The notes beneath the pieces are model-generated. The model worked only from the letters and a program-made list of their open reading frames with translations, did no database searches and was not told the origin of the DNA. A program made the position numbers and the translations under genes. This document shows, in pieces, positions 28,701 through 58,886 of a stretch of DNA of 64,000 nucleotides (positions are counted from its first letter, which is position 1; each line of letters opens with the position of its first letter). Source of the DNA: a virus; the IMG/VR virus record IMGVR_UViG_3300007708_000003, positions 34,361 to 98,360 of that record; one strand, 5' to 3'.

Positions 28701-30263
28701 TTCATATCCTGCAATATCTATAAGAGGATTACCTTGGTTATCTATTGGATGTAATATGTTACTAAACTGAACACCAAGTATATTTATAAAATTACCTGTT
28801 GTGTCATGTATGTGTATAGTTTCATTTGAAGGCATCTTATGATGTCTTATAGGCGTATTGCATAAATTTCCCCAAATCTCTGGATGATTGTTAGGGTATA
28901 ATTGACTAGATTCCCAATAAGCCATATTACCTTTTGCAATTATAACACCACCATCAGGTAATGTACCAGAAAATGCTCCTGTTGTAGAAGTATCATACGT
29001 CTGCCATACTTTAGTTTTGCCAGGTAATAGATCTGGATTACTTGCTGATAATATTGTAAGGTCAGAAGATATTGATGTTCTACCAGGAATATGATAAGAT
29101 GCAGATTTTGCACCTGTTTTATATACCCATCTAATAAAAAATGAATATACTTCATCACGCATGTATCCTGTTTTATTACCACCTTTCCAGTAATAATCTG
29201 CAGGATATTTTACAGCAACCCATTCTGTTTTTATTCTATTTGCAAAAGGTTGATAATTAAAATAAGGTTGTGTTGTTACACTTGTTCTTATAAGATAGTT
29301 ATTAAGAGAAAACATCTTTTTACTTTTCTCATATATTTGTGATCTTAAAGGAATTAATGATAATGGTATTGTTTCTAAACTTGCTAAATACTGATCTAAA
29401 TGTACTTTAGTTTGTGAAATGTCATAGTTACCAACTTTTTTTGCAACAGTTTGATTTGCAATAACTGATACAATAACTAATTCATACTCTTCAAAATTAG
29501 TATCTAATCCTGTTATATTTATATCAAGTGAACCACCAAAAGAAGAATGATCCCATAGTGCTTGTGGAGTTGAAGGAGTAGTGTAATCTGTTAACCTTAT
29601 ACCATTATTTGAATATGCTATAACTGCTTGATAACTACCATTTTGTAATTGACCTGAACCTATTGATATACTTACAGTTACACATGGTTGATCCACAAAT
29701 GGATGCAATCTAAGCTGTTCACAATCTAATTGATTAGTGCAGTTTTCATCACCACAACTATCTGGAATAGGTGTGCATATATAAGGTATACGTGAAGGAT
29801 CCAGAATCATTGTTCTATCTGGATTATTATTATCTTGCCAGTATGCAGAGTAAGTACAATCTGTATTATACTTAACAGCACCTGTAATTAAATACTTAGT
29901 GTTAAAATTTAAACATTGATCATTTACCAAAACAGTATATGAACAATCTGCTTCATCAAATATGCCTATTTCAGAAAATACATTATCAGTTGAATATACT
30001 ACCCATTCAGTTCTATACTTGTGTAATATACCAATAACAGTATAAGTTGAAGAAGTACAATATTTATTAGACTGTTCATTACCAAGATTACCTTCATCAC
30101 CTTTATGTGATGTGTTAATAGCATTAATAGCATTAGTCCATACTCCTTCAGGTACAAAGATTTCAGAATAATCTTTAACCATACCTTTTACAAAGCTGTT
30201 TGTTTTTCCTGTACTTGTACCTTGACTTGGTGTTTTATCTTGGTTTGTTGTATCTTCAGCCAT
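25800..30263 (-). CDS. crAss-like large tail (muzzle/stabilisation-type) protein, N-terminal portion (1487 aa)
   Basis: The N-terminus (KDYSEIFVPEGVWTNAINA, then SNKYCTSSTYTVIGILH and TEWVVYSTDN) is characteristic of the very large tail protein in crAss-like phages. It forms a beta-rich, ring-assembled tail-tip structure in that group. The chain is mostly beta, rich in Tyr, Asn and Phe, with Cys pairs near 180-205. An Ala/Gly-rich hydrophobic segment lies about 640-770 (GLGIALLSIMG, TTGLSSFSTIAAIASTVATV). Near residue 1350 a Cys-rich stretch appears (CNCGDCPDNY...YNPETGNCEK...PACD), and this repeat type continues at the start of the next gene. The start overlaps the preceding ring-protein stop by one base. 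I call it a tail protein with good confidence; the name 'muzzle' is by analogy. Confidence 0.7.
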   Translation of the reverse strand: MAEDTTNQDKTPSQGTSTGKTNSFVKGMVKDYSEIFVPEGVWTNAINAINTSHKGDEGNLGNEQSNKYCTSSTYTVIGILHKYRTEWVVYSTDNVFSEIGIFDEADCSYTVLVNDQCLNFNTKYLITGAVKYNTDCTYSAYWQDNNNPDRTMILDPSRIPYICTPIPDSCGDENCTNQLDCEQLRLHPFVDQPCVTVSISIGSGQLQNGSYQAVIAYSNNGIRLTDYTTPSTPQALWDHSSFGGSLDINITGLDTNFEEYELVIVSVIANQTVAKKVGNYDISQTKVHLDQYLASLETIPLSLIPLRSQIYEKSKKMFSLNNYLIRTSVTTQPYFNYQPFANRIKTEWVAVKYPADYYWKGGNKTGYMRDEVYSFFIRWVYKTGAKSASYHIPGRTSISSDLTILSASNPDLLPGKTKVWQTYDTSTTGAFSGTLPDGGVIIAKGNMAYWESSQLYPNNHPEIWGNLCNTPIRHHKMPSNETIHIHDTTGNFINILGVQFSNILHPIDNQGNPLIDIAGYEILRGSREGNRTIVAKGLFNNMLEYNIPGSTAGNRKGLIQNYPYNDLRPDPFLSSGITPVRNYFSFNSPETAFVKPYLGRGVYTRIYKEQYGVATGAYEFPYKHPKFKVITDLAFTFSSIVGLGIALLSIMGKTSTSTSNSGQTRAWQTTWGALYGVGVEARTLHLPQANFDDSVGMSTEGSAGSAAANLVTYLAQGTTNALTTGLSSFSTIAAIASTVATVISGAFYFYEATAQMIEIFRKMIPYKNYVLQYNSHGFYNSHGNVKNTNVPVGVQPSFNRTLAPSGVKYIGTGVQDFNATYRINNLFRGKYVCLNLTNNTTLPDITGTNTDFSKVHVTTNSPFDIKNTNIASYYGALKLDYENQYGQLSSIVQIPTDSCIYFTPPELNTTHVTLPIFGGDVYINRYTDKNPYFFFNTWLINEPDGTQFNYQNYFNGPEATYWANFEDYDVYEDFGFNVGWIYFNISTPSSKFNWYGSTQGVSFSVNNSWIYLFNNGVKDFFAESELNMAYRDYGENDYEKFYDVYGNTFNDLQTMFRSDLITKPVFYKYDLSLSTAKLYNNFISWGLLLPADYDPVLYETCYEYFPYRGIYSLQQQDGLKRDNWRNFLPLNYYTFEGIVTNIKSVNSSGALILYEDFSPSQFVGVDTLKTDTGGTKITIGDGGLFANNIQSLVNAEDVIEYGASISNRATLNTPYGLFFVSQKAGKVIQYGAEGMNEISKSGMKNWFLQNLPSPLLQAFPNFTEYDNPVAGVAVQAIYDAQYELLYITKKDYKPLDCVGYDPNFGFYDACNCGDCPDNYILVDGVCTRNFDTALCADPTYTYNPETGNCEKMTTENPACDPAITIILFTFWNKAKVECGSTLTNFTQGSLQFAKCSYLNAPNITCNTYNANREGLGRGLIGDIAVGSIVYHPANSLIDTGMNGNFVGDSVEGIPGTSPGIIPPNRVVITVVAGVVTAITNFNDIASC

Positions 30264-31408
30264 TATAAATAATTTTTGAACATGTTGTAATAATTATGAT
30301 ATTGAGCTTTTCTGTTCATATCATGTAATTTTTTCATCTCTGCAAAATCAGGAGTATTAACATAAGACAATGCATTGTTTCTAGCAGCTCTTAATTGTCC
30401 ACTCATTAATTGTAAATGATTTTGCACAGGTTCACCAGCCATAAACAAGTTTTCAAATATACGTTGCTTTAACGCATACTCATAATATTCATTTGTGTAT
30501 GGATTATCAAGTATTAATAAGTTACCATCATCATCTTCCATAATAGATTGGTAATTTAAAAATACAACACCCTCATCAAAGTTTACATGTAAAAATCCAT
30601 TTTTTAGATATGCATCATAATAATTACCTTTTTTCATACCTAACCCTGTAATAAAACTATCATCCATTCTTGCATCATAATCTTCTCTAGGTTCAGGTGA
30701 TAATGATTCAGTTTTGTATATGTGCAATCTAACTGGTTGTCTACTTTCAGTTCTTCTACCATTCGTAGTATAATGAACTCTAGGAGTACCATCAGCTGCA
30801 CAATCAAGTAATGCAGGACAAGTTCCTGAACCATTACCAACAGTACTTATTTTAGCACCCATTACAATAATCTTAACATCTGCTATTGTTTCAACTGATT
30901 CAGAATATAATCTTACATTATCCATATCTAAAACAGTAACATCAAAATCTAGTAAACTACCATCTGTTGCAAATGCTTGTATTACTACATTCATTGTATG
31001 CAATTGATGATTAATTACATTGATACCTTGTGTTACATTTGTATATATTGTAGATTGATTAACAAATCTAGGTTCTAAAAAGTTTTGAGCCAGCACAACT
31101 CCTTCTAAAATACCTTCAGTATATGTTTTATTATAACTAGGTATTTCAGATACAAGTTTATCTTCACAAACAAGTGCAAAATTTAACACATCCATATTAT
31201 CTGGTAGTCTACCTTTTCCCTTATGTATATCTATTACTCTTGACTTTTGCATATTAATACGCAATCCTAAATCATAGTTACAACGCATTGCAACTTTAAT
31301 CATTTGTTGAGGATTTAAAAGACCTTCAAGATCATAAGTATACAAGTCAAGTTTGACACTATCCATCAAATCATCAAAAGTTCTATATTTAGGTTCAGCT
31401 AATGGCAT
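30263..31408 (-). CDS. Tail ring/adaptor protein (381 aa)
   Basis: A 381-residue protein starting MPLAEPKYRTFDDLMDSVKL with a helical N-terminal region (QMIKVAMRCNYDLGLRINMQ) and a long mixed beta region. Its position just before the large tail protein and its make-up fit the ring proteins that stack between portal and tail tip in crAss-like phages. The gene of similar type that follows the portal block is at 44938-45651. No enzyme motif is seen. It lies six bases from the preceding ring-like gene and overlaps the next by one base, which indicates a tightly coupled tail-assembly operon. Confidence 0.55.
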   Translation of the reverse strand: MPLAEPKYRTFDDLMDSVKLDLYTYDLEGLLNPQQMIKVAMRCNYDLGLRINMQKSRVIDIHKGKGRLPDNMDVLNFALVCEDKLVSEIPSYNKTYTEGILEGVVLAQNFLEPRFVNQSTIYTNVTQGINVINHQLHTMNVVIQAFATDGSLLDFDVTVLDMDNVRLYSESVETIADVKIIVMGAKISTVGNGSGTCPALLDCAADGTPRVHYTTNGRRTESRQPVRLHIYKTESLSPEPREDYDARMDDSFITGLGMKKGNYYDAYLKNGFLHVNFDEGVVFLNYQSIMEDDDGNLLILDNPYTNEYYEYALKQRIFENLFMAGEPVQNHLQLMSGQLRAARNNALSYVNTPDFAEMKKLHDMNRKAQYHNYYNMFKNYL

Positions 31409-31414
31409 GGTATA

Positions 31415-32086
31415 TTATTTTACAATGTTTTTATTATCTTGTTGATTATCTTGTGGCACACCCATCATTCCAATTAAATCTCTTATAACAGCTTGTTCAA
31501 TTTCTGCATATAAATATTCAGGAATTGTAAACATGGTGTCTTGTATATAAGCACAGTCATCAGTAAGATCGCAATTATAAGAACTTATATCCCCTTCAAA
31601 TAAACCTTCTATTCTTACAGCATCCCATTCTAAGTTAGGAAAATATATATATCCATCAAGATACCAGTAGTATTTCTTTTTGTTATACTTAAATGTTTTC
31701 TGATTTACCATTTTTTGGAACACAGAAGGAAATGTAGGAACTATTTCTTCAGAAAGGTCTATTGATGTCACTGATCTAAATAGTGGTCCAAATACGCCTT
31801 CAAATGCGCGTGGCAATCTTTCTTTTGTACGCTTGAATGTACAACCTGTTGTAATACAATGACAATGTGATTCAGCTCTATCTACATCTATAAGCTCAAC
31901 AAAGTTTAATACTTGAAATACAGCATTAAACTTCATGATTTTATTTTGAATATCTTGTCGTCTTATAAGCATTTTAGCATGCTTCATTACCATAGAATAC
32001 AAAAATCTATCTGTTAAAAAAGCATCTTGTTTAGATCCCTTAACTTGATTACGTACTCTTGATAAAACTTCACCTATTGTTATCAT
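31415..32086 (-). CDS. Tail ring/adaptor protein (223 aa)
   Basis: The N-terminus (MITIGEVLSRVRNQVKGSKQ) is helical, followed by a beta-rich segment with a Cys/His cluster (SHCHCITTGCTFKR). A C-terminal helical part holds EYLYAEIEQAVIRDLIGMM. Its organisation resembles that of the 237-aa protein at 44938-45651: short helical start, beta core, C-terminal helix containing an acidic Ala/Ile-rich motif. Both probably belong to the head-to-tail ring group. Five bases separate it from the IHF-like gene and six from the 381-aa ring protein. Function is inferred from position and organisation. Confidence 0.5.
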   Translation of the reverse strand: MITIGEVLSRVRNQVKGSKQDAFLTDRFLYSMVMKHAKMLIRRQDIQNKIMKFNAVFQVLNFVELIDVDRAESHCHCITTGCTFKRTKERLPRAFEGVFGPLFRSVTSIDLSEEIVPTFPSVFQKMVNQKTFKYNKKKYYWYLDGYIYFPNLEWDAVRIEGLFEGDISSYNCDLTDDCAYIQDTMFTIPEYLYAEIEQAVIRDLIGMMGVPQDNQQDNKNIVK

Positions 32087-42218: not shown

Positions 42219-43844
42219 CTATGGTTGCAATGTAAGTCTTACATCATAGTTATTTGCAGAATTTAACAAGTTTGTAAAGATACCTTCAAAAGTAGAATTT
42301 CTTGTAGAAGCAACTACTCTTACCAAGTATTGATCATTATCCATTGTTCCACTTGGATTACCTTTACGAGGAACACTGTGTAAAATGTTGTAAACAACAT
42401 ATTTGTTACCACGTGTAAGTTCAGTAAAAGGATTATAATCAAGAACCTCTCTTAAACGTGGATCTTGGATCCATGGTTCTTGTTGGTATCTCTTAGCTAA
42501 GATTAACTCTCTAATAAGAGTTTCACCAAAACCTCTACCTTGTATAGCTTGTTGTACTTCAGTAGGTACAAAACATTGAGCTAAACATTGATTTCCTAAT
42601 GGGTCTAATGCAGTAATAGAACCATAAATTTCAACTGGTTGTAATTCTACGTGATCTCTTGGAGCAAATGAACAGTCACCAAATACAGTATCTACATAAG
42701 CACCTACAATTTCTAAGAAAGAATTTACAGTATCAGGAGCAGTAGCACCTGTTAATGGAGTATATCCAGCAGTTGTAATTACACCATATATTTTAGGAGT
42801 AATAATAGTAGTTGTAATATTAGCAATAGCTGTAGTACTTGGAGTTTGAATAGTATCAGCAGCAACTAAAGCAACAGCTCCAGAACCAGTAGCAGCAACA
42901 TAACTTGAAATTACATAAGCAGTTACAGGAGTAACAGAACTAATTGTAGTAGAAGCAACAGTTTGAGAAATATTAACTGTAAAAGTTGAACCTGTACCAC
43001 CACCACCAGTTAATAGTTTAGTAATAGTTGTACCAGCAGCAACACCAGTTCCAGTAAGTACTTGACCTACAGAGAAAATTGTGTTAGTTGCAGTACCTAC
43101 AGTAAATACATTACCTGCAATAGTACAACCAGTTGCAGAAGTAGCAGTAGTTGGTGTAAATACAACTCTTTGTCCAGCTAAAATACCTGTTCTATCAGAT
43201 ACTGTTAATGCATTTGCAGCAGTTGCAGTAGCTGTAGCACCAAGACCACTAGATAATAATACTTGGTTCCATACAGTTCCTTGTACATAATCTTTTATAG
43301 TTGGATATAAAGCCAATCTATCTGCCCATCCTAACAATACAATATTTGGATCTACATTATTAGGAGAAGTTGCAGAATCACAACATCCTGTTTGTGCATC
43401 TAATGTAAAGTAAGCATTGTGAGTTAAGAAACGCAATACTGGAGAACCTTTAAGATCAATTCTTAATCTGTAAGTAGTGTTACAAGTAACAGAACATCCA
43501 GGAGTAGAAGCTATTTGAACAATATCTTGTACAGGATTAGATGGTTCAGTTACATAGTATGCACTAATGTACTTAGGGTTGATCCCTTTTGATTTCACTG
43601 ATTCTTTGTAACCTCCATGATAAGGTCCCAATTTATCAACAGTGTGATAACTTCCTTGTGCAATATACACTAAGGGATTTACTTGGTAAGCAGTAGTAGT
43701 TAATGTTGCATCAACAGTTAAGTTGGTAGCAGCACTAAATACACCTACTTGTCCAGCAGTTAAAGCAGAACTAGCAATACCAGTTGTTGTCTGGAAGCTT
43801 CCTGCAACGAGCATTTTTTGAAATGCATGTGGAAAATAAGCCAT
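42219..43844 (-). CDS. Conserved crAss-type virion protein with inserted Gly/Thr-rich domain (541 aa)
   Basis: The N-terminal part ([60 protein letters not shown]) and C-terminal part ([60 protein letters not shown]) form one protein conserved in crAss-like virions. Between about residues 195 and 340 there is an insert of very different composition, rich in Thr, Ala, Gly and Val ([34 protein letters not shown]), with the look of a surface-exposed beta domain common in phage decoration and tail proteins. The ATTAACCTT leader motif lies 14 bases before the start, as for the capsid gene, which suggests high expression. The exact virion location is unknown. Confidence 0.65.
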
Positions 43845-43877: not shown

Positions 43878-44306
43878 TTATTTGAGGAATAGTAGTTTAT
43901 ATTTAATACTATTCAGTGTACTTTTGACAGTATCAAGATCATTTACAATTTCACTATAAGGCATTAACCCTTGTAATGTGCTAATCATCTGATATATATC
44001 TCTTATATAAGATAAAGATTCTTCTACAGAATTCAAAACAATTGGAGAAAAATCTTCATATTCTAATAGTTTTTCTGTAGCACCTTGAAATCCTTCTGCT
44101 AAATCATCAGCATGTCCAGGTAGTGCATCATATAATTCATTTAAAGCTTTGTGTCCAGCAAATGATCCTACACCAGTAATCTTTAAATGCATTTTGTGAA
44201 AACTTACTGCAGCATTCATTAACTCAGTAATACACGCAGCAGTTTGTTTTTCTAAAGAATTTATTGAAAACAATTCTTCTTTTTTTAATTTATAATTTTC
44301 TTCCAT
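43878..44306 (-). CDS. Dps-like / DUF5856-type ferritin-superfamily protein (142 aa)
   Basis: The segment from residue 36 to 75 (FHKMHLKITGVGSFAGHKAL, NELYDALPGHADDLAEGFQG) has H40, H52, D67 and E71. The spacing of 12, 15 and 4 residues is the same as the ferroxidase ligands of Dps proteins (His-His-Asp-Glu). The chain is predicted all-helical and is close to the usual Dps length. It also resembles a phage family I recall as DUF5856. The start codon side follows a ferritin gene whose ATG end is shared: this gene's ATG overlaps the ferritin stop by one base (TAATG), so the two are co-translated. Dps proteins store iron and protect DNA from peroxide; whether this one does so, or is only a structural helical bundle, is untested. 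Confidence 0.65.
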   Translation of the reverse strand: MEENYKLKKEELFSINSLEKQTAACITELMNAAVSFHKMHLKITGVGSFAGHKALNELYDALPGHADDLAEGFQGATEKLLEYEDFSPIVLNSVEESLSYIRDIYQMISTLQGLMPYSEIVNDLDTVKSTLNSIKYKLLFLK

Positions 44307-44932
44307 TATCCACCCATTTCATTATCAAGTAATCTTAGTGCAAGTTTATCAGTGCCAAATGCTTCAAGTTTATCAACCCAAGTTTGCATTTTGTCATGTT
44401 CTTCTACTTGTTCTTTTAAGAATTTTAATGATAATTCATATAACATATGATCACCTTTTTTAAATGATTCTGATGCCATTTGTTTACACTGTGTGCTAAC
44501 TAATATTTCATGATCAAATGAATCTTGAATAATCTGTGGTAAACCTGAAAAATTCTGTGCAGGTTGATCTAGACGTGGTGTAAGTGGTTGAATACCAAAT
44601 GACAATAAATATGTTCTAGACCAATCAGCATGTTTTAATTCTTCATCAGAATATGTTTTCCATAATCCAGCAGCACCTGAATATCCTTTATTATTTAACC
44701 ACATAGACATTGCTAAATATACTCTTGATGAATATTCTTCTTGTTGTATTCTATAATTTAAATAATCAACACAGTGCTCAGATATAAGTGGGTTCTGTGT
44801 TATTTTTGAAGGAACTTGTGTTGTTGCTCCTGCACTAGGTCTAGCTGTTGAAACATTGTCTAAAACAGATATTTCTTTTACAGTTTCTTCTATATTTCTT
44901 TTTAACATTCTTGTTGTTGCACTGTTATCCAT
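44306..44932 (-). CDS. Ferritin (non-haem, FtnA-like) in the phage head operon (208 aa)
   Basis: Residues 50-190 contain every ligand of a non-haem bacterial ferritin in the right order: E65 (QQEEYSSRVY), Y72, E98 and H101 (DEELKHADW), E142 (FDHEI), Q175 and E178 (KEQVEEH). The helix-A sequence EEYSSRVYLAMSMW closely mirrors the E. coli FtnA pattern. Typical ferritins have about 165 residues; this one has an N-terminal extension of about 45 residues (MDNSATTRMLKRNIEETVKE...) that could dock it elsewhere. Ferritins oxidise Fe(II) and store iron in a 24-subunit shell. The gene lies five bases after the adaptor-ring gene and is coupled to the Dps-like gene. Base composition looks like that of its neighbours, so it is not an obvious recent arrival. 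Confidence 0.9.
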   Translation of the reverse strand: MDNSATTRMLKRNIEETVKEISVLDNVSTARPSAGATTQVPSKITQNPLISEHCVDYLNYRIQQEEYSSRVYLAMSMWLNNKGYSGAAGLWKTYSDEELKHADWSRTYLLSFGIQPLTPRLDQPAQNFSGLPQIIQDSFDHEILVSTQCKQMASESFKKGDHMLYELSLKFLKEQVEEHDKMQTWVDKLEAFGTDKLALRLLDNEMGG

Positions 44933-44937
44933 AGTGT

Positions 44938-45651
44938 TTAATTATTTAATGTTGAGTTTTGTTTATTTCTTTGGTATTGAGTCATAGATTCTATATCTCC
45001 TGCAAGAATAGAACATGCTTCATCTACCAGCATTTCTGCAATATCATCTTTAAATTCACAAGTAACATCCGTAATTATTAAATTTCCTGTTGAAGGATCT
45101 ACACAATTTGCAAATTTTACTTCTCTTGGTTTTCTATAATAATATAAAACAGGAGTTGCTAATTCAAATTCATCATTTATATACACTTTTATTCTATTAC
45201 CAGATAGTGTACAAAAAGTTTCACCCCATTTAGCACTTGGTTGTCTAAATTCATCACTAAGAAGAAGATCAATATCAGCAACTTGTGCAAGGTAAACAGT
45301 CATTCTTCTTGGTTCAGTACAACAATCTGCTATAGAGTTTACTGCAAATCTTTTAAAATATAAATAATCAGCAGGTAAAACACCAGTTTCATAATAAACA
45401 TCACGTTTTGTTAATACTATAGGACTTGTTAAAGTATCAGTAAGTAATAACTGTATATCATCTATACTCATCTTAGAAGATTCATCACCTTCTTTAAATT
45501 GATTTGCACCATGAACTTGTCTACGCACCCATTCTAACTGTGCTTTATTAAATGCTTCACTAACTTGCCAGCATTCTATGTTATCATAGTCTAAACTGGC
45601 AAGCTTGTTTAAGCGTTCTTTTATTTTTATTTGTAATAAACTATTTGTCAT
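44938..45651 (-). CDS. Head-tail adaptor / ring protein (237 aa)
   Basis: The N-terminal helix (MTNSLLQIKIKERLNKLASL), the QLEWVRRQVHG helix, a central beta region (VYYETGVLPADYLYFKRFAV, RIKVYINDEFELATPVLYYY) and a C-terminal helix (DDIAEMLVDEACSILAGDIE) match the organisation of phage head-completion or adaptor proteins. It belongs with the two other ring-type proteins at 30263-32086. It is three bases after the DUF6321-type gene and five before ferritin. Function is inferred from organisation and location. Confidence 0.55.
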   Translation of the reverse strand: MTNSLLQIKIKERLNKLASLDYDNIECWQVSEAFNKAQLEWVRRQVHGANQFKEGDESSKMSIDDIQLLLTDTLTSPIVLTKRDVYYETGVLPADYLYFKRFAVNSIADCCTEPRRMTVYLAQVADIDLLLSDEFRQPSAKWGETFCTLSGNRIKVYINDEFELATPVLYYYRKPREVKFANCVDPSTGNLIITDVTCEFKDDIAEMLVDEACSILAGDIESMTQYQRNKQNSTLNN

Positions 45652-46360: not shown

Positions 46361-47377
46361 TTATGAGTTCCAATATTTTTCTGTATTTGTAATTACATCC
46401 AAAAGAATTTCTTCATTTAAAGGATTCTTCAAGTATAATAAAATATCAGAAGGGTTTTTACCTAACATAGAACCTGACTTCATATGATAGATGTTACCAT
46501 CACCTCTTGTTGCAATTAATTTATAAAAATTAGCATCTTTAATTACAGCTCTTAATTTAAGAGTTTCCATATCTAATAGGCATATATCTAAAAACTTTTG
46601 AGCAGTTTGACGTTTATTAGTTTCTACTGATTCTCCACTAATGTATTTATCCATATTATCATATAATACATCAAGTGGTGTAGATTTTTTATATTGTGTT
46701 GAATTTGGATCAACTACTTTACATACATAAAATAACTTATTTGTATTCTTATCAAACATTTTTTGTAATTCAGCAAATGCTTTGTTTTTAAGTTTTTTAA
46801 GTTCTGTTTTAATGGATGCAGTTTCTTCAAACTTGTCTAAATAAAACTTATACCTAGGAGCTTCAGTTCTAGCATGTTGTAATGATTTTGCAATAATACT
46901 AAATCCTCCATGTTCAATAGCTCTTAACTTAATAAGATCATAAGGATCATTTGCAGCATCTAAATACACTGGTTCATTACTGCATCTTAATGCAATCTTA
47001 CTCCAAAATTCATCATTATCAGGTCTTAGTAATTTTACCTTATTCCAAAAATCAGGATCTTTAGGATCAATAACATTTGCAATAAGTTCTTTTTCTAATT
47101 GAGCAACAGTATTTCTAATATCTTTTACCAAAGCATCTTTTTCTTCTTCAGGTAAATTTTTTATTTCTGGAGCAAATTCATTAAGTCCTGTAACATATCT
47201 TTTAATTCCATTATTTTCAAGACATATAATTTGTTCTTCATGAAAAATTCCTTCAAACAATACCATATTGTATTTTTCTAAACCCATGTTTTCATTAATA
47301 TTGTCAACAAAAGGTCTAATTGTAACACTGCTATTTCTTTTTAAAGACTGATGCTTGTCTATCATTGTAATTTCCAT
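46361..47377 (-). CDS. Conserved head-region protein (338 aa)
   Basis: The protein starts MEITMIDKHQSLKRNSSVTI, is mixed alpha/beta, and contains the segments DPKDPDFWNKVKLLRPDNDE and KLFYVCKVVDPNSTQYKKST. Its place two genes after the major capsid protein corresponds to a conserved but uncharacterised structural gene in crAss-like phages. No enzyme motif is visible. It is separated from the preceding gene by a 194-base structured leader, unlike most of its neighbours, so its expression may be controlled at RNA level. Confidence 0.5.
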   Translation of the reverse strand: MEITMIDKHQSLKRNSSVTIRPFVDNINENMGLEKYNMVLFEGIFHEEQIICLENNGIKRYVTGLNEFAPEIKNLPEEEKDALVKDIRNTVAQLEKELIANVIDPKDPDFWNKVKLLRPDNDEFWSKIALRCSNEPVYLDAANDPYDLIKLRAIEHGGFSIIAKSLQHARTEAPRYKFYLDKFEETASIKTELKKLKNKAFAELQKMFDKNTNKLFYVCKVVDPNSTQYKKSTPLDVLYDNMDKYISGESVETNKRQTAQKFLDICLLDMETLKLRAVIKDANFYKLIATRGDGNIYHMKSGSMLGKNPSDILLYLKNPLNEEILLDVITNTEKYWNS

Positions 47378-47844: not shown

Positions 47845-49494
47845 CTAGAATGATCCACCAGTTACTGGGTTTCTCATTACAATTTTCAATACTTTAGTAG
47901 GATCTTTAACCCAGATGCTTGGCATAGTTTGAGTCATAAATACTCTATAACCATTGAAGTTTCCAGAAGATGCAAATCCTTGAGATCTACCCATATAGTC
48001 CATAGTACCATTTTGGTAGAACCATTTCAATTGATTATCCCAGCTTAATTTCAACAAAAAGATGTTGTCATTAGTGTTGTCAGTAATATCAAATACAATG
48101 AAGTTGTAAGATGATAATGGGTATCCATCAATGATTGGATTCTCAATATCATTTGTGTGAACATTGTCAAATGCTGGATTCAATACAAACTTAACATTTG
48201 CCAAGAATGGAATTGTATAACTTGTAAAAGCAAATCCAAAGTTCAAGTCCATTGCATTTTTACCAGAGATAGCACCAACACCAGACTGATCCATGTTAGC
48301 AATTAATCCAGTAGTACCACCAATAGTTCCTGAGAACGCTTCTTTTTTGATAGACTCATTAACCATTCTCATACCAGCCATACCAGTTTGAACAATGATT
48401 TGTCTGTTTGGATCTGGTCCTTTGAATTCAACTTTACCATTGTAGAAGTTGAAAATTTCAGATCTGAACAACTCTAAGTTGAAAGATCCTTTGTTGTATA
48501 TTCTCTTATAAGAGTTATCTAATTGAGACCAAAGACCTACTGATAATCTAATATCATCTGGACCATCTTGTTTAATTCTACCACCTTGCCCCCACATTAA
48601 GTAAGTCTCAATGTCATTAGCTACTTTAGATAAGTGAGCTGCTTCAAGATTAGTAACAAAAGATCTAGTCAAATTACCATTATCATATGATTTTTTGATC
48701 CAGTCTTTACCCATAGATTTAACCATATCATCAATCTTAGTGATAGATGGATCAAGGTTTTTATCAAATGATCTCCAGATTTCAGTTACAGGAACTGTAC
48801 CATCTGCATTAAGACCACCTTTCATCATCATGTCAGCACGAGAAGAAATTGAATAGTGTACGTGAGCTTCAGCACCTCCTACAAAGTTGTAGTATTCTCT
48901 GAAACCATTTTGTAATTCTCCTATGTCAGAGAATTTTTCTCCATATTCCCCACGAGCAGAACCTTTTCTGAAGAATTTAGTACCTGGTTTAAGATACTTT
49001 TTGTCTAAGGTAGCTGTGTTGTTGTTGTTTACTAATTGTACAGTATAGATAAATCCATCTCCAGAAGGAAGAATGTCTTCACTAGGTACAATGTAAAGTT
49101 CTAGACCTTTATATTTGTCATAAGTGATGATATCACCTGATCCAAATATACGTCTGTTAATTTTAATTTTGAAGAGTGTACCATCAGCTCCTAAAGCTGT
49201 TTGTGTAGGTTCTACGTCTTCTACAATGTACGGAAGATCTTGTACAATTGGTGTTTGCCATTTGTACTCTCCACGAGCATTGTCTACCATTATGGTGTTT
49301 TTACCACCAAAAGATGCCATCTGATAAAGAGGCATTTCTACCTTTTGCGTCATTGCCCATAAGTCAACAGGTCCTAAATCCATAGGTTCTGAAGTCTTTA
49401 GCATATTTTGCAAATGGTATGAATCTACATGCGAACTAACTTTGTAAGTAGTATCACGCAAGAAGAGACCATTGTTTAAAACAGGTGTAGCCAT
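47845..49494 (-). CDS. Major capsid protein, crAss-like HK97 fold (549 aa)
   Basis: The N-terminus (LFLRDTTYKVSSHVDSYHLQ, EPMDLGPVDLWAMTQKVEMP, LYQMASFGGKNTIMVDNARG) and the segment VEDVEPTQTALGADGTLFKI are characteristic of crAss-like major capsid proteins, and the length is as expected. It follows portal and scaffold-like genes and ends at a strong terminator. The start is supported by an ATTAACCTT leader 15 bases upstream. It forms the icosahedral shell. The C-terminal part has the mixed strand-helix pattern of the HK97 A-domain, as far as can be judged by eye. Confidence 0.88.
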   Translation of the reverse strand: MATPVLNNGLFLRDTTYKVSSHVDSYHLQNMLKTSEPMDLGPVDLWAMTQKVEMPLYQMASFGGKNTIMVDNARGEYKWQTPIVQDLPYIVEDVEPTQTALGADGTLFKIKINRRIFGSGDIITYDKYKGLELYIVPSEDILPSGDGFIYTVQLVNNNNTATLDKKYLKPGTKFFRKGSARGEYGEKFSDIGELQNGFREYYNFVGGAEAHVHYSISSRADMMMKGGLNADGTVPVTEIWRSFDKNLDPSITKIDDMVKSMGKDWIKKSYDNGNLTRSFVTNLEAAHLSKVANDIETYLMWGQGGRIKQDGPDDIRLSVGLWSQLDNSYKRIYNKGSFNLELFRSEIFNFYNGKVEFKGPDPNRQIIVQTGMAGMRMVNESIKKEAFSGTIGGTTGLIANMDQSGVGAISGKNAMDLNFGFAFTSYTIPFLANVKFVLNPAFDNVHTNDIENPIIDGYPLSSYNFIVFDITDNTNDNIFLLKLSWDNQLKWFYQNGTMDYMGRSQGFASSGNFNGYRVFMTQTMPSIWVKDPTKVLKIVMRNPVTGGSF

Positions 49495-49520: not shown

Positions 49521-50780
49521 TTATCTTTTAAATATATTTGTTTGTCTTGTAATCTTTCTTGTAGCTGGTCTTTGATCATCATCATCATCTCTTGTATAAG
49601 AAGAAATTTTTCTTGCTTCTTCTGTTTTAAGTTTTCTAACTGTATCTGCAACTACCTCATTTTTTGCTTGTTTTCGTACATTCTCTTTATAATCTTCTGG
49701 ATCAGAAAGTAACCATAAAGTTTCTGCAATTAAATCATATCTTGGTTGTTTTCCAAATTGATAATCTTCTAAAAGTTTACCTAACATATTTGTAGGTCTT
49801 CCTGAGATACTTTCATACTTAACAGTAGTAAGTTCATCCCATAACATCTTTTGTCTTTTACCATCAATCTTTACACCATTTAGTTCACCTGGTTTTAAAG
49901 TCTCATATATATTATGCATATATGCTTCTTTTTTAGCTTGTTGTTGTTGTTTAAAATGTTCTTGTTGTGCAAGTTTACCTTGTAACATTTCTTCTTGCAA
50001 ATCATCTAATTTTGGTTTAAACTGATTTGCTTTTTTAGATAAATTATTACCATCTGTCCATTCTTGAATTTGATCTTCAATTAATTCTTGATCACCATTA
50101 CCAAATCCTGTAGCTTGTAAATATTGTCTAACAATCATTTCTTGATGTTCAGGTTGTCTTACATCAAGTTCACGAATTTCTTCAACATGTGCCAAAGCTC
50201 TAAATAAACCTTTTAAATCATTTCCACCTTTTGCAACATACTCAGCAGCATATTGTAATTCTTCAGGTAAACTTTCAAAGAACTCTTTTGGAGTTTTTGC
50301 AGCAACATCATTTTTGATACTATCAACATTTGCTGTCCATAACTCATCAATATCTTTTTCTGATAGATTTCCTAAATAATCATCTAATGATTGTTTAGTT
50401 TCATCATAATCATCAAAAGCAAACATTTCATTATTTTCAATTCTTTTCTTTAAGAATGAAACTAATCCACTTTTATCTGTTTTAGTTCTACCACCTTTTT
50501 TCTTAGGTTCATCTTCATCATCAAAATCATCACCTGTTTTAAGTGTTGAGTCTAATTCATCAAGAGTAGAATCTACAATTTCTTTATCATCTGTCTTATC
50601 ATCATCATTCTTATCTAAGAAATCAAGATTAACAGGTTTGTTTTTTGCACTAAATAAGTTTGGCTTATCATCTTCTTCATCAGAAGTTACCACACTATCT
50701 GCACCAGGCATTGGTAAAAAGTCATCAATGTTTTCAATAACTACGTCTTCTACCTGAGATTTGTTGTTTTCTGTATTCAT
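49521..50780 (-). CDS. Acidic scaffold-like head protein (419 aa)
   Basis: The first 110 residues are strongly acidic (DDFLPMPGADSVVTSDEEDD, DEPKKKGGRT). The remainder is helical with a Gln/Lys-rich coiled-coil-like stretch (LAQQEHFKQQQQAKKEAYMH) and a basic C-terminus (KITRQTNIFKR). Its position between portal and major capsid protein, length, charge and helical character are those of a phage scaffolding protein. No protease motif is seen. The gene is preceded by a 109-base gap with an 8-bp hairpin at 50830-50848. Confidence 0.6.
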   Translation of the reverse strand: MNTENNKSQVEDVVIENIDDFLPMPGADSVVTSDEEDDKPNLFSAKNKPVNLDFLDKNDDDKTDDKEIVDSTLDELDSTLKTGDDFDDEDEPKKKGGRTKTDKSGLVSFLKKRIENNEMFAFDDYDETKQSLDDYLGNLSEKDIDELWTANVDSIKNDVAAKTPKEFFESLPEELQYAAEYVAKGGNDLKGLFRALAHVEEIRELDVRQPEHQEMIVRQYLQATGFGNGDQELIEDQIQEWTDGNNLSKKANQFKPKLDDLQEEMLQGKLAQQEHFKQQQQAKKEAYMHNIYETLKPGELNGVKIDGKRQKMLWDELTTVKYESISGRPTNMLGKLLEDYQFGKQPRYDLIAETLWLLSDPEDYKENVRKQAKNEVVADTVRKLKTEEARKISSYTRDDDDDQRPATRKITRQTNIFKR

Positions 50781-50889: not shown

Positions 50890-53625
50890 CTATGACTGTT
50901 TTTTGTCATATTTGTTTTTATTCATTGCTGCAACTTGCACTTGTTTATTAGCAATTGTTTCACGTACTTGTAATTCTTTATTTTTTAAAGAATTCTTTTC
51001 TTGATCATTTATTTGCTGATTAACTTCACGTGTTCTAGCTAATGATTGGTCAACTTGTTTTGCATTTTTCTTATCAAGATATTCTAATGTATCAATATAA
51101 TCTGATTGTTCATTAGCATTAATATCTTGTGTTGCAGTATTAACAGATGCTCTAACTTCAGCAACACGCTCATTAGATTCTCTATTAAGTTGATTTTGTT
51201 CAGCTGTAAATTTCTGTTGAGATTCTAATCTTTCAGCAGCAGCTTGATCTTGCATTTGAATTTCTTGTTGTCTAGCTTGTTGTTCTTGTTGACGTTGAGC
51301 ATTAACTTTTTCTTCAATGTTTTTAAGAGTATGATCAATTTCAGCAAGTGAGTCAGCTTTGATAAGATTACCTAAATCATATATTGATGCTCCAGCAGTA
51401 TTGTTAGATAATGCTAAAGATCTAATTTGTTCTGTAATTTGTTTTTGATTTACTTTTGTAGATGTAAATATATTTAGTTCTCTTGCTAATAAATCTGTAC
51501 CATTGATTTCAAAATTTATCTTTTCATCTAAAGATGTTATATACTGTAACCTTATACTAGGTTTTGTACTATGATAATATTGTGCAAGATCTGTACGCAT
51601 TTGATGTACTCTAGGCATTAGATATTCTGAATGATTTACAAAATACATTTCTGTTTGTGAATAACTCATGTTTATAGCTTGCTCTATACCTGTAGCAGTT
51701 TCTTGTGCATTTACTGCACCCATACGTTGAGGTGTAAGACCAATAACTTCAAATGCTTGTTGTTTAAAATAATTAGATAATTGTATTCTAGACATTAATC
51801 TTTGAGTTTGTTCAAGATTAAGTACTTGATAATGTTGAAAGTTTAATCCATTTTCAGTATTTGTAATAGATGTATCTAAAGGTAACATTTGAAAATCTTT
51901 CATTGCTACATATGCTTTAGCTAAATTGTTTTTACCCCAGTCTTCACCCATTGAGTGACGTGGTAATGCATTCTGATCAAGCATAATAACTGTACCTAAT
52001 TCATCTACTAAGATGTCTGCAATCTGATTGTTAGTAAGATTATATCCAATTTGGAATGGTTTCATCTTATCTACTAGCGCGCGCGAGCGTGAATTTCTAT
52101 CATGAAATACAGAACCTTCAACAGGTAACTTACAACCATATAAACTATTATCACCTTTAAACTGAAACTTTAATGGATGACAATTTAGATACAAAGGTTT
52201 GAATCCCATGTTATCATTGTTACCATAGAATGATGGTCTATTAGGACCTATCTTTACACCACCCCATACTTGGTTAATCCATATCCAATCAATATGATCT
52301 CCAAATATAAGTGTATCTTTTGTTTTACCTTTTATAACAGAGTTGTCGTATATAGGCTTTTCTGTTACTTTAAAATTTTCATCTACAATCATTTGATGCA
52401 TAATTCCTTCATCATCTATTCTTGTAAGATGTCCTAACATTCTTTGAGATTTCCAGTATGCTGTAGTAACACGTAATAAAGAGTAATTACTAAAGTCCAT
52501 TAAATCTTCAGACTCATTTAATATTCTATATATAATGTCATCTCCAGTATTAAGTACTGCATCTTTGTGTGCTAAAAATTGACGCATACCTAATGATGGA
52601 CCTTCAACATTCCAATCATGTGATCTTGTAGAGTCATAAAATGAACCATCATTTTGTACACCTGGCAATGCATATCCTGCAGATTTAACAGGGTATATAG
52701 CTTCTAACTGTTGCATTTGATCTTTGGTCATCATGTATCCATATCTATCTATGATGTCTGATATGGTCATTAAGTCTACTCTTCCTACCCAGTTAGATTG
52801 TGATATATATCTTGCTTCAGGTGATTTATGATAGAATGTAAGAACAGGGTTCCATATCTCAATATCATAATCATCTTCATTTAATTTAAAATGCCAGAAC
52901 TCTCTATCAGTAATAAGCATATCTCTGAAAGCCATATTCTCTAATTCTTTCATATAGAATCTTTCAGTATCTACTGAATGCTGATGTGTTGCCCATTGTT
53001 CTACCATAGATCTATAATCTTTTTTAAAGAATTGTTCTATTTCTGGTAGTGTTTTAATACTGTCTGGTGACATCATTTGTTGAGCTTGTTGAGCTTGCTC
53101 TTGATTGTTTGGATCTAATCCCATTTTAGAGATGTTCTCTTGCATTTTTTGTTCACCATATGCCATAAGAGTTTCTTCAATCATTCCTCTTTTAGCATCA
53201 AGCATTTCATTAAAAGAAGTATCATCTACAGCTCTGTATGTAATCTTATCATTTCTTTTAGCAAACTCTCCTGTAAGAACATTAATAACATTAGGTATAA
53301 TAGGAAAGAATTTTAACTCAAATGCAGATAAATCTTCTTGAGTAAGTGTATCTATTAAATCAGCATACTCATTATTTTCTTCAACAATATAATCTGTTTT
53401 GTCTATAATACCATTGGCTAACTTATAATTTTTTAATAAACGTCTTGCATTACGTCTTATTTGTTTTAGACCTTGCATTTCTAACCAATCTAGATTCCAT
53501 GCTGCCCATTGCTCATTTTTTTGTGAAGCAAGCAAAAACTGAATAGGCTGAGTAAGTGTACCCATTCTATTATATTCTGTAGTAGCACCTCCTTTAAGTT
53601 GAAGAGCATTATATAATTTTGGCAT
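50890..53625 (-). CDS. Portal protein (911 aa)
   Basis: The protein starts MPKLYNALQLKGGATTEYNR and continues with QWAAWNLDWLEMQGLKQIRR and YKLANGIIDKTDYIVE, a pattern typical of the large portals in crAss-like phages. Its length and place between terminase and scaffold fit. The C-terminal 180 residues are Gln/Glu/Lys-rich coiled coil (RQQEQQARQQEIQMQDQAAA), corresponding to the helical barrel region. A dodecamer at the capsid vertex would pass DNA in and out. The stop is TAG; eight bases separate it from terL. Confidence 0.85.
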   Translation of the reverse strand: MPKLYNALQLKGGATTEYNRMGTLTQPIQFLLASQKNEQWAAWNLDWLEMQGLKQIRRNARRLLKNYKLANGIIDKTDYIVEENNEYADLIDTLTQEDLSAFELKFFPIIPNVINVLTGEFAKRNDKITYRAVDDTSFNEMLDAKRGMIEETLMAYGEQKMQENISKMGLDPNNQEQAQQAQQMMSPDSIKTLPEIEQFFKKDYRSMVEQWATHQHSVDTERFYMKELENMAFRDMLITDREFWHFKLNEDDYDIEIWNPVLTFYHKSPEARYISQSNWVGRVDLMTISDIIDRYGYMMTKDQMQQLEAIYPVKSAGYALPGVQNDGSFYDSTRSHDWNVEGPSLGMRQFLAHKDAVLNTGDDIIYRILNESEDLMDFSNYSLLRVTTAYWKSQRMLGHLTRIDDEGIMHQMIVDENFKVTEKPIYDNSVIKGKTKDTLIFGDHIDWIWINQVWGGVKIGPNRPSFYGNNDNMGFKPLYLNCHPLKFQFKGDNSLYGCKLPVEGSVFHDRNSRSRALVDKMKPFQIGYNLTNNQIADILVDELGTVIMLDQNALPRHSMGEDWGKNNLAKAYVAMKDFQMLPLDTSITNTENGLNFQHYQVLNLEQTQRLMSRIQLSNYFKQQAFEVIGLTPQRMGAVNAQETATGIEQAINMSYSQTEMYFVNHSEYLMPRVHQMRTDLAQYYHSTKPSIRLQYITSLDEKINFEINGTDLLARELNIFTSTKVNQKQITEQIRSLALSNNTAGASIYDLGNLIKADSLAEIDHTLKNIEEKVNAQRQQEQQARQQEIQMQDQAAAERLESQQKFTAEQNQLNRESNERVAEVRASVNTATQDINANEQSDYIDTLEYLDKKNAKQVDQSLARTREVNQQINDQEKNSLKNKELQVRETIANKQVQVAAMNKNKYDKKQS

Positions 53626-53633
53626 GTTGTATG

Positions 53634-55835
53634 TTATTTAAAATTTCTAAATGGATTGCGTGGTTTTGTCATGCCACTATTTACACTTTTATTTTTTCCC
53701 ATATGACGAAAAGGACTCACTTGTAATTTAGCATAATTATTTGACTTTTGCAAATTATCATCTTCTCTTTCAGTACGTTTAGTATATCCTCTATTAGATT
53801 GTTGTACTTGTGCAAATGCTACCATGGCACAAAATGCAACTAATCTATCTACGTTAAGTCCATCTCTATATGCTTGCATTTCTTTTAACAACATTATATC
53901 AGGTATTCTTTCAATACCATATGTTGTTTTTACAATTGTACCATCTGGTTTTGTTTCATGATCTAACTCTTCTTCTATAAATTGCTGTGCATATGATATA
54001 AGATTTGTCTTAAATAATGTACTAACATTTCTCCAACCATATTCTTGAAATACATTTGTATTACTTTGCAATTCTTTTAAGAATAATATTTGACTTTTAG
54101 GTACTAAATACTTTTGCTTTCTTTTTGCAATCATATACTGAATAAATAAAGATATATTATTTTCTACCACTGTCCAGGCATTATACCATTCTATAATAAG
54201 TTCTAGTCTTTCATGTGTTTTGTTAAGGTCATCAAACCTACCACACCATGCTGCAACAATTTTATCTCTTTCTACATATGAATCTATTGTACCATCAGCT
54301 TTATGTTTGGTAATTTCTTGTGATGTCTTGTATACAAATATGGAACACAATGAGTCTGAGGTAGTTGTCTTTCCTTCTGCAACAGGGTCAATAGATGCAT
54401 AGTACATCCCAAAGGTTATATCTTTTGCAGGTCTTTCCCATACAACAAGAACTCCTTCTTTATTTTCTGTTTTTGCAGATATAGGAAATTCAGATATAGG
54501 AATTTTTTTAGATTCTTTTGCTGTGATTGTATTATTTTCATCTCTTGATAATTCTAAAAATTCTTTATAGTATGTACCATCTTCTATTCTTCTAATTTGT
54601 GATACAACTAATGCAGGATTAAACTTGGGAGCTTTTCTACTTGTAAATGCTTCTTCTATAGTTATAGGATGCTGAGATATACGCAATTGATAATCATCAG
54701 GTTTAAGATCTCTCTTCCATTGTATTCTTTCTTCTTTGATCATTTCTAATGCTTTCTCTACTAGAGAGTTACCATAGTTATCTATACATGGTATCATTGA
54801 CCATTGCTGAGGTATAAACAATCCACACTGACCTTTAGTACCTTTATCATCTAACAAGTCAGTTTCAACAGCAAGAATGTCTTTACTGTTTGGCATCATT
54901 AACATTTCTCTTAAAGGTTCACATTGATCTAAATCTCCAACAGAACCAGCAACAACAAATTGTCCAGTATATACCATACCAGACTTCATTGCAGGAAGTA
55001 AGTATTCTAATGTTTGATTCATTTTAGGGGCAATACCTGCCTCCTCATGAAAGAAAAAAGTACAAGGACCTCCTACACCATTTGTAGGATCTTTGTCTAA
55101 TATAAGTCCTAATAATACAGATTTTAAACCTATATCTCTTTTTCTACCAGATTGATTTATTTCAATCTTTTGTTCCCAGTTAAATATCTTATCTGGAGTA
55201 CATGGTCTATACCATGCAGTATAAGTATTAAGAAAGTTTCTGTATTCTTCAAGAAAACGCCATGTACCTTTTTCTCCAATATAGTCTTTTAAAGATCCTG
55301 CCATTTTATTTATAGAACCTTCTTCAAACCAAAAGTAATTTATCATTTTTCCTGCATGATAATAACTAGATGCTATCTGACGTTTCTTTAATATAAGTGC
55401 ATGTTTAGAACTATGTCTACCAATTTCTTCATATAGTGCCATATGATACTGTGCATCTCTGACACTAGCAAATCCAAACTTAGATATTTCTTTGTTATAT
55501 ATAGGAAGAAAGTTTAACCACATGTAATAGTCTCTTGAAAGATACCATCTGTTTTTTTTGTTCTTATATATTACACCATTTCTACATTTATCTTTTTCAG
55601 TATCCCAATAAGTAATATAATCTTTTGAACGCATTGGAGCATAGCAATACACTTTGTTATTTTTTTCAAAGTTTGTTGCTTGTTCATTAAACTTTTGTGA
55701 TGTTTCATCAAACTCATATTTACCTGGTTCCTTAAATAAAGACCACATAAACTTTACAAATTCTTCTCTTGTTTCAAAATCTGTGTGTGACCATACATCA
55801 GTTGTATCATCATATGTTGGTACAGATATATACAT
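53634..55835 (-). CDS. terL: Terminase large subunit (733 aa)
   Basis: The ATPase half shows a deviant Walker A region (LILKKRQIASSYYHAG, about 147-162) and a Walker B-like strand ending in the acidic pair (CTFFFHEEAG, about 258-267). The nuclease half has the segment YYASIDPVAEGKTTTSDSLC with a first metal-binding Asp, and further acidic residues at DIMLLKEMQAYRDGLNVDRL. Length and order upstream of the portal agree with TerL. It packages DNA through the portal and cuts concatemers. No small terminase was recognised; the IHF-like and winged-helix-like genes upstream might assist DNA recognition, but that is speculation. Confidence 0.88.
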   Translation of the reverse strand: MYISVPTYDDTTDVWSHTDFETREEFVKFMWSLFKEPGKYEFDETSQKFNEQATNFEKNNKVYCYAPMRSKDYITYWDTEKDKCRNGVIYKNKKNRWYLSRDYYMWLNFLPIYNKEISKFGFASVRDAQYHMALYEEIGRHSSKHALILKKRQIASSYYHAGKMINYFWFEEGSINKMAGSLKDYIGEKGTWRFLEEYRNFLNTYTAWYRPCTPDKIFNWEQKIEINQSGRKRDIGLKSVLLGLILDKDPTNGVGGPCTFFFHEEAGIAPKMNQTLEYLLPAMKSGMVYTGQFVVAGSVGDLDQCEPLREMLMMPNSKDILAVETDLLDDKGTKGQCGLFIPQQWSMIPCIDNYGNSLVEKALEMIKEERIQWKRDLKPDDYQLRISQHPITIEEAFTSRKAPKFNPALVVSQIRRIEDGTYYKEFLELSRDENNTITAKESKKIPISEFPISAKTENKEGVLVVWERPAKDITFGMYYASIDPVAEGKTTTSDSLCSIFVYKTSQEITKHKADGTIDSYVERDKIVAAWCGRFDDLNKTHERLELIIEWYNAWTVVENNISLFIQYMIAKRKQKYLVPKSQILFLKELQSNTNVFQEYGWRNVSTLFKTNLISYAQQFIEEELDHETKPDGTIVKTTYGIERIPDIMLLKEMQAYRDGLNVDRLVAFCAMVAFAQVQQSNRGYTKRTEREDDNLQKSNNYAKLQVSPFRHMGKNKSVNSGMTKPRNPFRNFK

Positions 55836-58521: not shown

Positions 58522-58528
58522 ATTCTTG

Positions 58529-58886
58529 TGGAGGTGAGGAGAATCGAACTCCTGTCCAAACCATGATCAATAATACAATTTATACAGCTTATAGGTAATC
58601 AACTCAGTTGATGACTCCACCACTCTATTTAATCTAACAGAGAAATCTTTATGGCAATTTTTAAAGTCTTGAGCCAGTGTTTGACTGAATTAATCTAGGC
58701 TGCTACAGCAACTTCTTCTCTAATCAAAGAGAATACTTTGTTCATGTTAGCTTCTACTTGTGCGTTGTCTCCTAGAGATACTACACCAATTGTGTTTTTG
58801 CCATTTATTATATTCACCTTAGTTTACAGTTATCTCTCTGGCTGATTGTATTACTTACTAATGACCTGTCAAAACCAGTCACCCCC
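58529..58886 (-). ncRNA. ssrA: tmRNA (transfer-messenger RNA), 358 nt
   Basis: The minus-strand 5' end GGGGGTGACTGGTTTTGACA is the canonical tmRNA start. The 3' end has the T arm AGGAG-TTCGATT-CTCCT and CACCTCC, which pairs with GGGGGTG to make the 7-bp acceptor (one G-U), then A. CCA is not encoded (ACAAG). The tag frame ends at TAG (58697-58695). With a Gly resume codon at 58772 the tag is 25 residues, starting GDNAQVE and ending EEVAVAA. A start two codons earlier (Ser-Leu-) after TAGTA is also possible. tmRNA rescues stalled ribosomes and marks nascent chains for proteolysis. It lies between a 64-aa gene and the packaging operon. Confidence 0.9.
58695..58772 (-). other. tmRNA tag-peptide reading frame
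   Basis: The frame begins at GGA (58772-58770) with GDNAQVE, passes through NMNKVFSLIR and ends EEVAVAA before TAG. The -VAVAA end matches the small hydrophobic C-terminus recognised by ClpXP/ClpAP-type proteases. At 25 residues it is much longer than the usual 8-15. The exact resume codon is inferred. Confidence 0.65.

Follow-up and report, generated by a model that had tools for sequence, protein, structure and literature searches.

An exchangeable ferritin/Dps slot in the head operon of crAss-like phages, and the N-terminal tag carried by its occupants

The 64,000-nucleotide stretch of viral DNA analysed here (the window) carries a ferritin gene and a Dps-like gene side by side, but comparison with related phages identifies the slot that they occupy, bounded by a tail-ring gene and by the conserved gene that comes next in the head/tail operon, as the conserved unit, rather than the pair. 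In the sequences compared, the slot is fixed in position, the ligands of both enzymes are invariant, their cores are under purifying selection, the enzymes have been exchanged in place, and a short N-terminal tag is bound to the phage lineage. We put the probability at about one half that this is a slot for swappable cage enzymes, in which an active, iron-oxidising and peroxide-consuming cage would be recruited by the tag to the particle or its assembly site. A literature search returned no paper describing Dps or ferritin in crAss-like phages, and no account of a head-operon slot whose occupants are exchanged and share a tag.

The head operon and its ferritin and Dps-like genes

The window is part of an IMG/VR virus contig of 98,360 bases, and its head genes are Crassvirales-like (Table 1). 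Crassvirus capsid (PF23898), portal (phrog_6547) and ring proteins (PF24228 and PF25702) are all present, and it is on these, together with the terminase (phrog_6681), that we class the genome as Crassvirales-like. The ring protein at the upstream border of the slot is matched by hhalign to phi17:2 gp064 (98.7%) and Lbo-JY46 XAI97413 (97.1%), and more weakly to crAss001 gp35 (90.8%) and gp34 (86.1%), which excerpts of the crAss001 paper describe as the tail-barrel ring proteins R3 and R4/R5 (PMC10172136). The 541-aa protein at the downstream border has a homologue by hhalign, XAI97412, in the equivalent position in Lbo-JY46. Spacings along the DUF6321, ring, ferritin and Dps genes and the gene that follows are 3, 5, -1 and 33 bases, and this tight spacing is consistent with the first four forming one transcription unit. 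Among relatives the DUF6321 gene is mostly immediately upstream of the ring gene and varies in length; in PHROGs, many larger phage proteins have DUF6321 as their C-terminal part. The same phage genome has a complete tmRNA gene, with the tag peptide ANMNKVFSLIREEVAVAA, and a tRNA-Met close by.

Table 1. Features of the window discussed in the text, in window coordinates.
Feature	Position	Strand	Evidence
tmRNA gene, complete	58526..58886	(-)	Rfam RF00023, 86 bits, E 2.6e-33
Terminase large subunit	53634..55835	(-)	phrog_6681 1.6e-61
Portal protein	50890..53625	(-)	phrog_6547 9.4e-86
419-aa protein with portal and capsid genes on either side; possible scaffold	49521..50780	(-)	gene order
Major capsid protein	47845..49494	(-)	PF23898 Crass_capsid 1.2e-29
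Conserved 338-aa protein, after the capsid gene	46361..47377	(-)	
DUF6321 protein, 80 aa	45655..45897	(-)	PF19846 5.9e-25
Crassvirus-type tail-barrel ring protein, 237 aa, upstream border of the slot	44938..45651	(-)	hhalign; phrog_29507
FtnA-type ferritin, 208 aa, first gene of the slot	44306..44932	(-)	PF00210, Foldseek, ligands
Ferritin N-terminal extension, residues 1-48	44789..44932	(-)	low-confidence/disordered in AlphaFold2 model
Ferritin N-terminal tag MDNSATTRMLKRN, includes R-x-L-K-R motif	44894..44932	(-)	motif counts, lineage tracking
Dps-like protein (DUF5856/phrog_858), 142 aa	43878..44306	(-)	profiles, ligands, Foldseek
Dps N-terminal tag MEENYKLKK, degenerate KLKR	44280..44306	(-)	alignment; close relatives MDFTSGSYKLKRP etc.
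Conserved head/tail-operon protein, 541 aa, downstream border of the slot	42219..43844	(-)	adjoins slot in most relatives
Second ring protein, CrAss_Ring_2	31415..32086	(-)	PF25702 2.3e-21
Third ring protein, CrAss_Ring_1	30263..31408	(-)	PF24228 2.6e-9

Crassvirales membership and the 48% identity of the ferritin to a chromosomal ferritin of Maribacter, the closest cellular ferritin found (one genome, in a pattern-limited scan), point to a Bacteroidota host, whereas the capsid's top match in the phage database differs in being from a cyanophage (28%). The cyanobacterial Leptolyngbya phage Lbo-JY46 (locus L306) has crass-type capsid, ring and downstream genes in the same order as the window's clade, suggesting that crass-like head modules exist beyond phages of Bacteroidota. 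Relatives of the capsid are encoded in at least 599 IMG/VR stretches; within the capsid family (L229-L305) identity is at least 76% in the best 80 loci, and that of adjacent genes goes down to 50-60%.

The original prediction placed two co-translated genes, for a complete bacterial-type ferritin and a Dps-like protein, in a phage head operon between a ring gene and a conserved protein. Both ORFs are indeed found there, with the ring protein upstream and the conserved operon protein downstream, and they overlap by one base, the last A of the ferritin's TAA stop being the first A of the Dps ATG. The ferritin matches PF00210 above the cut-off (E=6.2e-23), and the ferroxidase residues E65, Y72, E98, H101, E142, Q175 and E178 are all present, without variation in any of 45 distinct viral relatives. 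AlphaFold2 predicts a confident helical bundle, for which Foldseek returns the FtnA-type ferritin 3qz3 of V. cholerae (target TM 0.94, rmsd 1.0), also the best relative of solved structure (E=2.6e-22; 30% identity). The predicted helices (residues 52-81, 85-111, 131-158, 162-192 and 196-207) form a four-helix bundle with a short C-terminal helix. The protein is thus like FtnA (PF00210; 3qz3 and E. coli 1eum) in its fold, its five helices including C-terminal helix E, and its ferroxidase ligands, and unlike FtnA in being encoded in a phage head operon and in having a disordered N-terminal extension with an LKR tag (pLDDT below 50 for residues 1-32), an extension that is not in ferritins from other phages. 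A dN/dS of 0.08 indicates purifying selection on its core.

The 142-aa protein matches DUF5856 above the cut-off (E=3.1e-12) and phrog_858 (1.1e-18), and falls below the cut-off for PF00210 (5.6e-4; 20.3 bits against 24.5). As had been noticed from the sequence, it has H40, H52, D67 and E71 at steps of 12, 15 and 4 residues, and this spacing, H-x11-H-x14-D-x3-E, we take to be that of the Dps inter-subunit ferroxidase ligands; all four are kept in 80 of 80 relatives retrieved without a Dps bait. AlphaFold2 again gives a confident helical bundle, with Dps as its Foldseek match (probability 1.00, query TM 0.73, E=1.5e-3), and core dN/dS is 0.14, also indicating purifying selection. Because the model has no short BC-loop helix at residues 78-93, we file the protein as Dps-like (DUF5856) rather than as a classical Dps. 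It has in common with Dps, DUF5856 and phrog_858 proteins the ligand spacing, a bundle closest to Dps, and the DUF5856 and phrog_858 matches, and differs from other phage Dps-like proteins in its short length, the lack of a clear BC helix, its LKR-type tag and its fixed head-operon slot. Profile matches, predicted folds and dN/dS led us to reject the possibility that either gene is a chance ORF.

Occupancy of the slot and exchange of its enzymes

Related loci were fetched with a ferritin bait, a Dps bait and two neutral baits (ring and capsid); the neutral scans took the best 80 loci per bait, so that the census covers the near clade of the window and not all crAss-like phages. Of 91 distinct ring sequences from the neutral baits (best 80 loci each), 77 come with Dps in the slot, five with ferritin, one with both and eight with neither. 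Since about 9% of relatives in this census are without any slot protein, such a protein is not essential. Empty slots with a detected downstream gene have about 70-150 bases from the ring gene to the next gene, and no other genes were found in the slot, the few unassigned ORFs of 50-70 aa lying mostly inside ferritin or Dps coordinates. The co-translated pair is therefore real in the window, but the survey of relatives makes it an unusual state of a one-occupant slot; we reject the pair as the conserved unit, both proteins occurring together only in loci of the window type and of one other type (L033-L036 and L041). The terminase, portal and ring genes of this second type are divergent from those of the window clade, and its pair sits between the portal gene and the homologue of the 419-aa protein, in the order ferritin-Dps in L034 and Dps-ferritin in L041. 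Lbo-JY46 and phi17:2 have the next large gene of the operon immediately behind the ring gene, with neither Dps nor ferritin between them, and hhalign of the structural genes of phi17:2, Lbo-JY46 and crAss001 found no counterpart of either protein.

The distribution of the two enzymes was followed on two trees, both from quick searches with a simple model and including some long-branched rows. The tree of 338-aa and ring proteins (122 rows) has at least 17 flips between Dps and ferritin, or 22 once empty and double states are counted, and well-supported branches force at least 15 changes of the ferritin label; a capsid-only tree also gives 17 Dps/ferritin flips, and here well-supported branches force at least 10 for ferritin. 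On these phylogenies there have been many in-place exchanges, dependent on no single branch. The window's closest relative on the first tree, L068, has Dps only, and the ferritin has thus either been gained lately upstream in the window lineage or been lost lately in L068.

Ferritin genes are also found in other positions. Near relatives of the window ferritin in L004, L026, L028 and L032 lie upstream of the terminase and have an N-terminal extension with no LKR tag. Untagged ferritins of another phage group (L048-L065, e.g. L049:6013-6513 and L055:5980-6480) are located between two giant proteins, of which, in L049, the upstream one has Dda-like helicase and DprA-like regions and the downstream one has the N-terminus xxCPNKR and belongs to no known family. 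These could represent a second ferritin slot, among giant proteins.

The N-terminal tag

In slot ferritins and slot Dps proteins alike, the sequence opens with a tag of the approximate form [KR]x[LI]xR[P/D/N], and a variable linker comes next. Within residues 2-25 the pattern [LIV][KRQ]R is present in 94 of 124 slot Dps proteins and in 22 of 30 slot ferritins, and in none of 20 non-slot ferritins (Fisher p=1e-7 for the ferritins, with kinship only partly corrected); slot proteins outside this pattern mostly have variants of it, such as KIPRP and KISRP. The window has RMLKRN on the ferritin and a weaker KLKK on Dps. It had been suggested that a 45-residue N-terminal extension targets the ferritin to the particle. 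The extension is real, at about 48 residues, but the conserved feature is the short tag and not the length: the extension is short in some slot ferritins that nevertheless keep [LI]KRP (e.g. MADLLKRPVRKGRNPLL). The sharing of this short tag strengthens the idea that the extension may act as a particle-targeting signal.

Judged from N-terminal comparisons, the tag goes with the phage lineage and not with the type of enzyme. Matching starts are seen on the ferritin of L010 (MMEKPRMLKRPE) and the Dps of L099 (MEKPRMLRRDN), on the ferritin of L220 (MAEQPRNLLKRE) and the Dps of L193 (MAEAPRNLLKRD), and on the ferritin of L293 (MKTIPRPTVFS) and the Dps of L262 (MAMQKISRSGIFS). N-terminal similarity between slot ferritins and the Dps proteins of tree-nearest phages is 26.8, compared to a permuted value of 22.4 (sd 0.9), with 0 of 5000 permutations reaching it (kinship only partly corrected); the C-terminal control is far weaker (173 of 5000). 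In the second type of locus (L033-L036 and L041), the same kind of comparison again shows two different cores with a common front end: both proteins begin M(AL)DIN, the ferritin and Dps of L034 starting with MALDINS and MIDINK respectively, and both proteins of L041 with MALDINK. The codons of these starts differ synonymously, and among the proteins of the fetched loci MALDIN was found on none beyond ferritin and Dps.

A recombination relic would also give shared starts: if each new core were joined behind the resident start, the 5' end would be inherited with the locus and have no docking function. We consider this explanation unlikely. It is favoured by near-identical DNA in this region in sister phages (L010 ferritin atggaaaaacctagaatgttaaaaagacca and L099 Dps atggaaaaacctagaatgttaagaagagat) and by dN/dS values for tag and linker far over those of the cores, but the L[KRQ]R core is kept in most slot proteins while the linker has diverged heavily and codons have changed synonymously, and a simple resident-start model cannot account for MALDINK on both genes of L041, only one of which could have inherited the resident start. 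In Dps, dN/dS is 0.66 for the tag and 0.75 for the linker, so that this measure lends weak support to selection on the tag taken whole, and we do not take it as proof. Within the motif there is synonymous variation at the Leu, Lys and Arg codons, which disfavours a signal at the nucleotide level only.

Outside slot proteins the tag was found in 6 of 1689 otherwise unassigned ORFs, and in no capsid, portal, terminase or ring protein. A tag on other virion proteins was rejected, the sole case being a chance-like LKR in some 338-aa proteins, located within the start of a conserved domain where other members have KYPQNKRS. A tag that stays constant in a lineage as the enzyme behind it is swapped suggests that the phage may steer cages to the assembling particle.

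Possible roles of the slot proteins

We propose that slot proteins would form iron-oxidising cages during head assembly (a 24-mer for ferritin, a 12-mer for Dps), and that the tag, exposed on the surface, would dock the cage to a lineage-specific virion or assembly partner, be it the capsid interior, the portal or ring, or a scaffold. Docked cages would then oxidise Fe(II), Dps doing so at the expense of peroxide, and this would limit Fenton damage to the particle's DNA and proteins; the two enzymes would be interchangeable because both supply iron-oxidation chemistry. We expect virions to contain such cages or to carry them attached. Folded ferritin and Dps cages are larger than a portal channel, and any that are packaged would therefore have to be taken in while the head is being assembled or earlier, and could not be ejected folded. 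More tentatively, heads may carry active ferritin or Dps cages as swappable cargo through a lineage-specific N-terminal address, forming an encapsulin-like iron/peroxide compartment in or on the virion. A Dps homologue, g280 of phiR1-37, is annotated as a phage structural protein, and in Vi01-like phages a predicted ferritin-like protein, gp217, was detected by virion mass spectrometry (PMC10892097). Large protein cargo (gp45 etc.) in Crassvirales heads and tails is described for crAss001, with no ferritin or Dps reported in the excerpts of that paper, unlike the window operon (PMC10172136). Non-structural genes also occur in a head operon, as with the amidase and cupin of phi17:2, and this counts against a role in the particle.

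The parallel with Family 1 encapsulins lies in a ferritin-superfamily cargo with a short terminal peptide and an HK97-fold shell, and the encapsulin targeting consensus SDGSLGIGSLKRS, which ends in SLKRS, has LKR near its end (PMC8346489). In encapsulins the peptide is usually at the C-terminus and binds one shell protein, whereas the slot tag is N-terminal and lineage-specific; the shell of the window phage is a crass capsid protein, and LKR alone matches the consensus. Homology of the tag to encapsulin peptides is unsupported beyond these three residues, and we use the parallel as an analogy only.

It is also possible, if not the reading we favour, that the slot proteins are late intracellular enzymes that are not packaged and are made with the structural proteins merely through their position in a late operon. 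They would remove iron and peroxide released from the dismantled host and protect replicating and packaging DNA, and the tag would bind DNA, as the basic tail of bacterial Dps does, or some other late partner in the cytoplasm. The tag has a basic character (KPRMLKR), and the untagged ferritins noted above adjoin a giant helicase protein. Phage Dps and ferritin-like enzymes are known: in the excerpts of the respective papers, the Dps, Mn-catalase and ferritin-like genes of Gratiaviridae and other gut phages (PMC8008677) and of Lactobacillus phages (PMC6669764) are likewise ferritin-superfamily enzymes of oxidative stress, lying outside the head genes and, in the Lactobacillus phages, near replication genes. 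They appear there as accessory metabolic genes, with no head-operon slot, Dps/ferritin exchange or shared tag reported in those excerpts. Late enzymes of this kind poorly explain the strict confinement to one head/tail-barrel slot or a lineage-specific tag common to two enzyme types, and a general DNA-binding tail need not vary so much by lineage (LKRP, IPRP, MALDIN).

A structural role was among the options originally raised, with the ferritin/Dps fold serving as a decoration or plug of the virion and its iron chemistry being irrelevant. The location of the genes between the ring gene and another conserved operon gene fits such a building block, as does the annotation of the phiR1-37 homologue, but a purely structural role is disfavoured because the catalytic ligands are all invariant in both families; furthermore, exchange of 24-mer-type and 12-mer-type cores is hard to fit to a fixed interface, and about 9% of relatives do without a slot protein. 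We regard this role as very improbable. We give equally little credence to iron delivery or piracy, in which an iron-loaded cage on the particle would either take advantage of the host's iron uptake (Ferrojan-horse-like) or keep iron away from the host. This was proposed for the Vi01-like phages with their ferritin-like virion protein, yet those phages infect tonB and feoB mutants equally well (PMC10892097); the slot genes, moreover, are among head and barrel genes and not receptor-binding genes, and their usual occupant, Dps, stores little iron compared to ferritin.

For the preferred reading, of tagged, active cages recruited to the particle or its assembly site, a dedicated and repeatedly refilled slot among the head genes of a widespread phage clade is strong evidence that iron chemistry matters to the particle or its assembly, and it touches on two open questions: how packaged genomes suffer oxidative damage, and what iron does in phage particles. 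If confirmed, the arrangement would mirror, in living viruses, the encapsulins with their HK97-fold shell and ferritin-like cargo, and it could serve as a tool for cargo loading, with the tag as a testable address signal.
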